A DNA stretch of 64,000 nt from Planctomycetaceae bacterium (GTDB taxonomy: Bacteria > Planctomycetota > Planctomycetia > Planctomycetales > Planctomycetaceae), in assembly GCA_020850695.1 (NCBI GenBank), contig JADZEF010000250.1, positions 1 to 64,000 of the forward strand, in the 5' to 3' direction. The notes below the pieces were generated by a model. The model was not told where the DNA came from and did not search any database. It saw only the letters and a list, made by a program, of their open reading frames with translations. The translations under genes were made by a program, and so were the position numbers. This document shows, piece after piece, positions 5,117-64,000 of the stretch; the stretch's first letter is position 1; every line of letters starts with the position of its first letter.

Positions 5117-5291
5117 GAGGATGGGGGGATTGAGGGATGGGGCGATGGGGGGACGAGATCCAAAGCGTCTGCTGGCCGTTCCATCTGTCGAACATCGTCG
5201 ACTTCTGAAAGCGGAGCACCGATGCGGAAGGAACCAGACTTGTTGACTGTATTATCCCCCCATCGCCGCGTCCCTCAATCCCCCCATCCTC
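5117..5291. repeat. purine-rich inverted repeat built on a near-7-bp period
   Basis: A 21-bp arm (5117-5137, GAGGATGGGGGGATTGAGGG followed by A) is perfectly complementary to 5271-5291, and an inner 13-bp arm (5141-5153, GGCGATGGGGGGA) to 5255-5267. Each arm consists of GGATGGG/GGGATTG-like units spaced about 7 bp apart. It fills the gap between the TM2 gene and the stop of the permease gene. Tracts of similar design recur near 38.2, 40.9, 61.5 and 62.4 kb. Confidence 0.75.
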
Positions 5292-38174: not shown

Positions 38175-38222
38175 TCAGGAGCGCGACCGTCGGCGCTCCT
38201 GACTCCTGACTCCTGACTCCTG
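38175..38222. repeat. hairpin plus 7-bp tandem array (CTCCTGA x 3.9)
   Basis: TCAGGAGCGC (38175-38184) pairs with GCGCTCCTGA (38193-38202). From 38196 the heptamer CTCCTGA is repeated exactly three times and then CTCCTG (38217-38222), 8 bp before the SEDS start codon. The hairpin and the array share the last unit. Confidence 0.85.
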
Positions 38223-40749: not shown

Positions 40750-40769
40750 ACGACGTTCGCAAGTCCTGT

Positions 40770-40793
40770 CGCACGGGCACTTCTGCCCGTGCG
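40770..40793. terminator. hairpin after nadA, probable terminator or 3-prime stabiliser
   Basis: CGCACGGGCA (40770-40779) pairs perfectly with TGCCCGTGCG (40784-40793) around CTTC, 20 nt past the nadA stop. There is no T-run, so intrinsic termination is doubtful; stabilising the 3-prime end is equally likely. Confidence 0.5.
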
Positions 40794-61503: not shown

Positions 61504-61616
61504 CGCAGAAGGGACATAGGGGTTGAGGTACAGAGGGGCAAAGGGACGCGGAAAGCAAGTCGGTGTTAGTCCCTCTGTCCCATTGACCCTGATCCCTTTG
61601 CCCCTTCCCTCTCCGA
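61504..61616. repeat. 7-8 bp periodic G/C-strand tracts forming an inverted repeat
   Basis: After the first clpP stop, units AGGGACAT, AGGGGTTG, AGGTACAG and AGGGGCAA follow at 8-bp spacing (about 61509-61548). From 61569 the opposite strand shows TCCCTCT/GTCCCAT/TGACCCT/GATCCCT-type units at 7 bp. A 12-bp core GGGGCAAAGGGA (61535-61546) pairs perfectly with 61593-61604. It lies 120 bp before the second clpP. Confidence 0.75.
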
Positions 61617-61737: not shown

Positions 61738-62340
61738 ATGACGGTTCTCGTCCCTTATGTCATCGAGAAAAGTGGCCGCGAAGAGCGGGCCATGGACATC
61801 TACAGCCGGTTGCTCCGCGACCGGATCATCCTGCTGGGCAGCCAGGTCAACGATCAGGTCTCGAACAGCATTGTCGCCCAGCTGCTGTTCCTGCAGTTTG
61901 AAGACCCCAAAGCCGACATTCACATGTATATCAACTCGCCGGGCGGCTCCATCACGGCCGGCATGGCGATTTACGACACGATGCAGTACATCACCTGCGA
62001 CGTGGCGACGTACTGCATCGGACAGGCCGCGAGCATGGGCGCCGTCCTGCTGACCGCGGGGGCTCCCGGCAAGCGGAACGCCCGCCCCAACAGCCGGATT
62101 ATGATTCACCAGCCGCTGGCGGGGATGGAAGGAACGGCCGCCGAACTCGAAATTCACGCCAAGGAAGTGATCCGCATCAAGCAGCGGATGAACGAGATTC
62201 TGCTGAAACACACCGGTCAAACGCTCGAAGCCATCGAGCGGGATACCGATCGCGACAAGTTCATGCTGTCGGAAGAAGCCAAGGCCTACGGCCTGATCGA
62301 CAACGTCCTGGAACGCCTCGAACTTCCGCCGGCGGCGTGA
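61738..62340 (+). CDS. clpP: ATP-dependent Clp protease proteolytic subunit (second copy)
   Basis: 200 residues, the canonical size. Triad S99 ([11 protein letters not shown]), H124 (IMIHQPLAG), D173 (DTDRDKFML). The N-terminal [34 protein letters not shown] is the usual ClpP lead, with an autoprocessing-prone first loop. This copy matches the textbook sequence better than the first copy, 235 bp upstream. The intervening spacer holds the 7-8 bp periodic tract, so whether the two are one transcript is unclear. With the first copy it likely builds a hetero-tetradecamer. Confidence 0.95.
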
Positions 62341-62349
62341 GGGAGAAGG

Positions 62350-62491
62350 AGACAGTAGTCAGGAGACAGGAGTCAGTAGAAAGACAATCCGGCCCCACGG
62401 CCTGGTGTTGACCCTCTGACTCCTTCCGCTCTTCTGCTGTTCCAGCTTTCTTTCGTCTGCCTACCCACTGCCAACTCCCCACTACCCACTG
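62350..62491. repeat. heptamer arrays in the spacer before the lipoprotein gene
   Basis: Left array GACAGTA/GTCAGGA/GACAGGA/GTCAGTA (62351-62378, four units of 7). Right array CCCACTG/CCAACTC/CCCACTA/CCCACTG (62464-62491, four units of 7), ending 7 bp before the start codon at 62499. AGGAGTCAG (62368-62376) and CTGACTCCT (62416-62424) are inverted copies linking the two halves. Confidence 0.85.
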
Positions 62492-62498
62492 TTTTCCC

Positions 62499-63743
62499 AT
62501 GCGACTTGCACTGACATGGATGTCGGTGTGGACGACGGCCGTCCTGTGCGGCTGCGCGTCGCGTGGCAACGTGGAGATGCTGGAAGGCCGGCTGCGGGTG
62601 CAGGAAGACCAGATCTACGCCCTGCAACGGCAGTTGAAGACAGCTGGTAGTGAGCTGGTCGCTGCCCGACGCGAGACAGAGGCGTTGCGGGCCGAGATGA
62701 CGCAGTATGCCTCGGCGATGCCTGCTCCCGAAGAGTCGCGGGCCTTCCATCGCGTCGAAGGGATCCGGATCAACAAGCTGCTCACCGGCGGCCTCAACCG
62801 CGACGGACAGCCCGGCCACGATCATCTGTCGACGGTGATCGTCCCTGTCGACGCCCAGGGGGAACTGGTCAAGGTGCCCGGCGCACTGCGGATCGAACTC
62901 ATCGACCTCACCGGAGACGGGGCCGAACGCCAGGTCGGCGTCTGGGAGTTCTCCGCGGAAGAAGCCGAGCAGTTCTGGAAGAAGGGATTCGTCGGCTCGG
63001 GATACTCGCTGACCCTGCCGTGGCAGCAGACGCCGCAGTCCGAAAAGCTGACGCTTCACGCCCGACTGACGACGACCGACGGCCGCCAGTTCGACACCTC
63101 GCACGAGGTCGCGATTTCGCTCGCGGGCGAAGCCACCTTCGCACGCAAAGACCGTCGCCGCCCGGCCCGCATGGCGTCGAAGCCGAGCGGCAAGGCAACG
63201 CTCAAGGACACGTCGGCCCCCGCGCTGGAACGTCCGGGATTCGCGACTCCCGGACCGGCGGACGAAGAGATCGAAATGCCGCCGCGCGTTCCGGCGAACA
63301 AGCCGGCTCCGGCTCTCGAAGGACCGCAATCGCGACGAACTCTGCCCCGCAGCGCAGCCCCCCTGCGTCGCGCCGGCGCCATCACGACGCCCCGCGGTCG
63401 CGCTCGCCTGCCGGACGTTGAACCCGAAGAGTGGGAGACAGACCCTCAGCCGGTCGTTCCAGACGAAGCGAGTCCGGATGAGGAATGGAACGATTTCCCC
63501 GAAGACCGCTCCCCGGTCGTCCCGCCACCGCGCGATCTCGACGACGATCCATGGGAATCGCTCCCCGCCCCGTCGGCGAAGAATCCCCCGAAGCTGATGA
63601 CCCCCGCTCCCGGCAAGGCCGCGAGGGAAGAGCCGGCTGAAGACGAGGAAGCGTCCGATTCGCCGCCGTTCGAAACGGAAACCCGTCGCCCCATCCGCAC
63701 CAGCGACCGCTGGACGAACTTCGACGCGCCCGTCATCCGCTGA
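62499..63743 (+). CDS. coiled-coil lipoprotein of unknown function
   Basis: 414 residues. Signal peptide with lipobox ending VLCGCAS (probable lipid Cys19). Residues 25-68 form a leucine-heptad coiled coil (VEMLEGRLRVQEDQIYALQRQ..) that could trimerise. Residues about 75-215 are an ordered beta-rich domain (VEGIRINKLLTGGLNRDGQPGHD.. STVIVPVDAQGELVKVPG.. RIELIDLTGDGAE) of a type seen in planctomycete outer-membrane lipoproteins; I cannot name the family. From about 230 onwards the chain is a charged Pro/Asp/Glu-rich tail without fold. No enzymatic residues recognised. The start ATG follows the heptamer array directly. Confidence 0.7.
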   Translation: MRLALTWMSVWTTAVLCGCASRGNVEMLEGRLRVQEDQIYALQRQLKTAGSELVAARRETEALRAEMTQYASAMPAPEESRAFHRVEGIRINKLLTGGLNRDGQPGHDHLSTVIVPVDAQGELVKVPGALRIELIDLTGDGAERQVGVWEFSAEEAEQFWKKGFVGSGYSLTLPWQQTPQSEKLTLHARLTTTDGRQFDTSHEVAISLAGEATFARKDRRRPARMASKPSGKATLKDTSAPALERPGFATPGPADEEIEMPPRVPANKPAPALEGPQSRRTLPRSAAPLRRAGAITTPRGRARLPDVEPEEWETDPQPVVPDEASPDEEWNDFPEDRSPVVPPPRDLDDDPWESLPAPSAKNPPKLMTPAPGKAAREEPAEDEEASDSPPFETETRRPIRTSDRWTNFDAPVIR

Positions 63744-63845: not shown

Positions 63846-63976
63846 AGTCGTGTTGTAGACACCGGGGCCTGCTGAGGTTCATCTCTTCGGGCTGAAGGCC
63901 CGCAACTCAATAGCCTGGGCCAAGCGAAGCGCCGGCCCAGGTTGGCGAAGAATCCAAGTCTCCAAGGCCCAAAGGG

Positions 63977-64000
63977 CCGTGACTCCATCCCGAGTCACGG
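63977..64000. repeat. 9-bp hairpin at the window edge
   Basis: CCGTGACTC (63977-63985) pairs with GAGTCACGG (63992-64000) around CATCCC. The loop region before it, near 63918-63945, also has CCTGGGCC...GGCCCAGG. The element may continue beyond the window. Confidence 0.5.

Follow-up and report, generated by a model that had tools for sequence, protein, structure and literature searches.

Two heptanucleotide repeat families in the spacer downstream of a planctomycete clpP gene, and the dispersed intergenic arrays to which they belong

Background

What keeps a seven-letter period in bacterial intergenic DNA when the letters themselves differ from one array to the next? The question is raised by a 158-nt spacer (positions 62341–62498) leading from clpP to a putative lipoprotein gene in a Planctomycetaceae bacterium (GenBank assembly GCA_020850695.1), whose two ends are built from different heptamers. 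A preliminary description of the window (the whole stretch of DNA that was analysed, 64,000 nucleotides at positions 1 to 64,000 of contig JADZEF010000250.1) held that five spacers share a period of 7–8 bp and differ in sequence, and that what is kept appears to be the period rather than the sequence.

Intergenic heptamers have been described in other bacteria, including Xanthomonas (GGGAATC) and Anabaena/Nostoc (GGGGA(C/T)T). They lie mostly 0–50 bp from an ORF, their G-rich strand directed outward from it; they form convergent inverted pairs (70–75 in Xanthomonas genomes, few in Anabaena) and vary in length between relatives, and no function was found for them (Rehm et al. 2015, PMC4692102). 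As related by Rehm et al. and by MacGregor, Mrazek and colleagues found an excess of heptamers among the repeats of bacteria, for which polymerase slippage was proposed (PMC4692102, PMC4679880). Our search of the literature returned no paper joining heptanucleotide repeats with planctomycetes.

Arrays in the focal spacer and the window

The arrays are a real, non-random feature of the spacer (Table 1). Both of those named in the preliminary description were recovered by Tandem Repeats Finder, the left at 62347–62380 with a period of 14/7 and the right at 62461–62490 with a period of 7, and when the spacer was shuffled 2000 times with its dinucleotides preserved, no shuffle attained the lag-7 or the lag-14 score. 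The left array begins 6 bp past the clpP stop codon, and the right array, counted with its trailing G at 62491, stops 7 bp short of the ATG at 62499, the distance originally given; this ATG agrees with the ortholog N-termini MKFRRRTWMS / MKQYLSTWTS. The F2 word of the right array reads GTGGGTA on the minus strand and CTACCCACTGCCAAC on the plus strand. Save for the F1 remnant and the array edges, the interior had no second copy in the genome, and no genome match spanned it. The putative lipoprotein gene gave no Pfam match.

Table 1. Coordinates of the repeats and genes discussed, numbered from the first letter of the window
Feature	Position	Strand	Details
Left array AGGAGACAGTAGTCAGGAGACAGGAGTCAGTAG, family F1 (GGAGACA/GGAGTCA/GTAGTCA)	62347–62379	+	about 4.7 units
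Right array CTACCCACTGCCAACTCCCCACTACCCACT, family F2	62461–62490	-	4.3 units
Short F1 remnant CTGACTCCTTC, opposite polarity	62416–62426	-	pairs 10/11 with 62345–62355
Interior separating both arrays	62380–62460		genome comparison
ClpP protease gene, left neighbour	61738–62340	+	PF00574
Putative lipoprotein gene MRLALTWMSVWTTAVLCGCAS, right neighbour	62499–63743	+	ortholog N-termini
F1 array (CTCCTGA)3.9, perfect	38196–38222	-	7 bp ahead of ATG 38230
8-bp array, family E2 (GGATGGGG/GGATTGAG), left arm of inverted repeat	5117–5153	+	
Right arm of E2 inverted repeat	5255–5291	-	
Inverted repeat AGGGGCAAAGGGA...TCCCTTTGCCCCT, in spacer separating two clpP genes	61534–61605		

The claim that five spacers of the window share the period stood for three of them, those with arrays at 5.12–5.15/5.25–5.29, 38.20–38.22 and 62.35–62.49 kb, the first being an inverted repeat whose 37-nt arms are 95% complementary. 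It did not hold at 61.5 kb, where the inverted repeat is exact over 13 nt (AGGGGCAAAGGGA) and no tandem array passed the threshold, nor at 40.9 kb, where the signal is weak and consists of two 14-nt copies with 24 bp between them.

Period and word families across the genome

The genome carrying the window comprises 8.6 Mb in 440 contigs, and its 81 PSCyt2 matches point to a planctomycete. Across it the F1 pattern GGAGWCAGGAGWCAG, a 15-mer built from the word GGAGWCA, had 203 exact matches versus 0 for the pattern read backwards, and the F2 pattern GTGGGTAGTKGGYAGTGGGTAG, built from GTGGGTA, had 105 versus 1 with up to 2 mismatches allowed. Periodicity was examined in a sample of 1.04 Mb, with 195 kb of intergenic DNA in 542 spacers delimited by a simple, purpose-made codon-usage gene finder. 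Mean autocorrelation over all spacers was uninformative, as lags 3, 9, and 18 rise too, probably because of missed coding DNA; this measure being too blunt, local arrays were counted instead.

Intergenic DNA showed, by a wide margin, the excess of lag 7 over shuffled spacers on which the preliminary description turned. In the sample, which was partly picked for F1 matches, lag 7 gave 39 arrays scoring at least 13 and lag 8 gave 12, versus 0 in shuffles; lags 6, 9, and 10 gave one or two each (one at lag 6, two at lag 9), with no enrichment at 6 or 9. In a check on 19 contigs that were not picked by matches (42 kb intergenic), 6 arrays scoring at least 11 were found at lag 7 and 6 at lag 8, versus 0.00 and 0.05 in shuffles. 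The density of lag-7 arrays was 205 per Mb in intergenic DNA versus 11 per Mb in coding DNA. Six word families (GGAGTCA, GTGGGTA, GGGTTGA, TTGGTCA, CACGGAGA, and GGATGGGG) cover 67 of the 74 arrays at lags 7 and 8, a descriptive figure given that the families were defined on the same 74 arrays.

Assembly breaks also fall within heptamer arrays, at the end of contig C193 and at the start of contigs C274/C174, and array lengths and numbers are therefore probably underestimated.

Orientation and pairing

The arrays sit close to gene edges, their G-rich strand directed outward from whichever gene is nearer, and often form convergent inverted pairs. Of 81 arrays in the sample, 70 had the G-rich form nearer the left gene or the C-rich form nearer the right one; the distance to a gene edge was at most 15 nt for 51% of arrays, versus 19% under random placement. 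Neighbours of opposite polarity less than 600 bp apart had the G-rich member first in every pair of F1 (6:0), F2 (3:0), and E1 (6:0), with a less regular order in F3 (3:2); among loci from cyanobacteria and others, F1 pairs closer than 400 bp stood at 11:0, and a hand count of listed places in four genomes gave 18:1 for F2. The focal spacer obeys the same rule with two families, having F1 at the left and F2 at the right, plus the F1 stub.

Inverted repeats scoring at least 13 were present in 135 of the 542 spacers, versus 3 in shuffles. In one class the arms are rich in purines, which stand in the left arm in 57 cases versus 8 with pyrimidines there, and the interiors are unique; a second consists of self-palindromic, REP-like units that also flank several of twelve Y1 transposase genes. 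The quarter of the spacers with a significant inverted repeat includes many arm families, for example TTAACGCAAAGACGC, TTTAACAGGAGCAAGCAGAGG, and TGAATAAGGAACCCAGGAAGGCAGG.

Distribution among other genomes

Orthologous spacers, whose alignment the preliminary description proposed as a check, showed no arrays: with minus-strand loci turned, the clpP–lipoprotein spacers of four other planctomycete genera measured 52, 58, 97, and 194 nt (158 nt in the focal genome), and all were array-free. Spacers downstream of clpP across the genomes of the family, compared with minus-strand loci left unturned, likewise held no matching arrays, and some had other inverted repeats at the same place. F1 and F2 are patchy and independent of one another within the family, F1 occurring without F2 in three genomes (G003, G013, G021) and F2 without F1 in another (G036).

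F1 itself is widespread, with at least 115 stretches among 84,980 genomes scanned. The matches listed are mostly from cyanobacteria, together with Acidobacteriota, Verrucomicrobia, Anaerolineae, and other labels, many of them on MAG contigs, so that single phylum labels may be wrong.

An all-against-all comparison of F1 loci produced almost no orthologous pairs; targeted searches within Okeania gave them. Downstream of one Okeania gene, two genomes carry 5 and 3 F1 units at 95% identity (G083 vs G088), a third carries a pair of F1 (GGAGTCA) arrays (G087), a fourth has GGGAGTA (G086), a fifth has GGGAACA/GGGAATA at the left with the complements ahead of the next gene (G084), and a sixth has a short spacer without arrays (G089). 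At a second locus, the spacer is 315–374 nt long with arrays in three genomes versus 31 nt in G088, and a third locus shows a right arm of 7 units, one of 4 units, or none. Differences in unit number of 4/3 were also seen among congeners. Arrays and array-bearing segments thus turn over quickly in Okeania.

The long spacers of the second locus (L292, L293, and L294, against L296 with 31 nt) hold two array-bearing segments, one of which encloses an F1 array and is bounded by GGCGTTGG...CCAACGCC. Elsewhere in Okeania (L159 vs L266), a clean insertion of about 127 bp has the ends TATCATGTCCGG...CCGGACATGATA and occurs in many copies in Okeania genomes.

Interpretation and alternative explanations

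The arrays are best read as a planctomycete representative of the slippage-prone heptamer repeats already known from the intergenic DNA of other bacteria, the class of Rehm et al. (PMC4692102), whose tandem G-rich 7-nt units, intergenic bias, outward-reading G-rich strand, and convergent pairs are all found here. The two agree in geometry and differ in words and in host, the present one being a planctomycete, and here at least six word families, of 7 and 8 nt, share one genome, and two of them share one spacer. Quadruplex motifs in the narrow sense, with G-runs of at least 3 per unit, were not found throughout, as F2 has GGG in most units and F1 has GG only and is not a G3 motif; we therefore assign the arrays to the class by geometry and not to the quadruplex motif. 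The STRR heptamers of cyanobacteria are likewise dispersed intergenic arrays, and the F1 word is found in many cyanobacteria. To our knowledge, the STRR1–3 words differ from those of F1 and F2. The TAACTGA repeats of Beggiatoaceae are also intergenic heptamer arrays that are patchy across phyla and often stand beside start codons; unlike the present arrays, they consist of one AT-rich word in essentially direct repeats only (PMC4679880).

We put a probability of about 0.6 on the reading that the spacer holds two dispersed families of slippage-prone, G-rich heptamer repeats that turn over by slippage, gain and loss of segments, and selective removal. By analogy with Okeania, replication slippage favouring units of 7–8 nt would add and remove units, and array-bearing segments would be inserted or deleted as whole pieces; slippage and segment gain are both carried over from Okeania, the genomes searched having included no congener of the host. 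Selection would remove arrays inside genes and probably also some orientations beside start and stop codons. The focal spacer would then contain what may be left of an F1 pair, one arm still good and the other reduced to a stub, with an F2 arm adjoining the downstream gene.

Between them, slippage, the turnover of segments, and selective removal account for most of the pattern, and repeat turnover explains the common period with no need for selection to keep it. The proposal that the period is kept rather than the sequence must be narrowed: inside one genome, sequence is kept alongside the period, as the assignment of nearly all sampled arrays to six families and the numerous matches to both focal families attest, and the proposal survives in the weaker sense that unrelated words have a common period and geometry and that Okeania words differ at one orthologous spacer. 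Slippage alone does not explain the origin of paired arms with fixed polarity and shared words. The occurrence of the same F1 word in planctomycetes, cyanobacteria, and several other phyla is unexpected under pure local slippage, and the array-free orthologous spacer of 194 nt, longer than the focal one, is a further point against our explanation. We regard as improbable a word-independent process, common to several phyla, that lays G-rich repeats of 7–8 nt outward from both gene ends and sets their period and polarity while leaving the word replaceable; broken 3' ends undergoing repair or templated addition would be one example.

The fixed polarity of convergent pairs would also be expected if each spacer had received one copy of a transposase-mobilised, MITE-like element with the arrays as its terminal inverted repeats, and it fits this idea that one Okeania congener lacks the array-bearing segments and that an F1 array sits inside a segment with the terminal inverted repeats GGCGTTGG...CCAACGCC. 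Such elements should share an interior between their termini, and none was found: the purine-arm class has no conserved core and its interiors are mutually dissimilar, unlike those of the REP class, and the genome contains no near-identical whole copies of the focal spacer. Of the 12 Y1 transposase genes, those with recognisable repeats on either side have different ones, self-palindromic REPs, and F1 arms occur only outside one such unit, at L253, where F1 arrays bracket the entire Y1–REP unit and adjoin the neighbouring ORFs. We think a MITE-like origin unlikely.

Most array-bearing spacers (53 of 73) lie between co-directional genes and the transcript of the focal spacer is able to fold, as would suit arms that act as RNA hairpins stabilising or terminating mRNA. 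Spacers between divergent genes have arrays too, however, and the fold is unexceptional (z -1.5), while mismatches between arms, read in the transcribed direction, comprise 30 G-U versus 34 A-C, with no excess of G-U; on the latter two counts, selection for an RNA hairpin was rejected. The focal spacer had no Rfam, promoter, or terminator match, and a role as RNA appears very improbable. Equally doubtful is the idea that the G-rich strand adopts a non-B structure (G-quadruplex or triplex) which regulates the neighbouring genes and for which the 7–8 bp spacing is retained. The F2, E2, and F3 words do have G-runs like those of GGGAATC/GGGGAYT, motifs that fold into quadruplexes in vitro (PMC4692102), and related intrastrand triplex motifs have been tied to instability (PMC4666352); yet F1 and E1, among the commonest families, have GG runs only, Rehm et al. 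found no gene-regulatory role (PMC4692102), and orthologous spacers lack arrays.

With the reading as turning-over, slippage-prone repeats, a poorly explained class of bacterial repeats now extends to Planctomycetota, and one genome can carry many words under one geometry. In Okeania, orthologous spacers reveal the birth of arrays, the replacement of their words, and their loss, and with such comparisons the long-standing preference of bacterial repeats for seven letters becomes open to direct test.

REP-like repeats and Y1 transposase genes

GTAG REPs/RAYT and TIRtrons (PMC3733652) are, like the heptamer arrays, inverted intergenic repeats and occur in the same genome; they are self-palindromic and flank Y1 transposases, and the heptamer arrays do neither. 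RAYT/REP was rejected as the owner of the arrays, the REPs being separate and the F1 arms not self-palindromic. Candidate REPtrons, with Y1 (RAYT-like) genes and inverted, self-palindromic REP-like repeats of several families on either side, were seen at L253 (C370:1844-5188), L254, L255, L256, L261, and L263. Within the window, a REP-like hairpin (GTCGCACGGGCACTTCTGCCCGTGCG) at 40768–40793 is kin to the repeats flanking the Y1 gene of L261, and from 63889–64000 and onward in the contig, an inverted-repeat arm (GGGCTGAAGGCCCG...GCGAAGCGCCGG) resembles the repeats beside the Y1 gene of L255.
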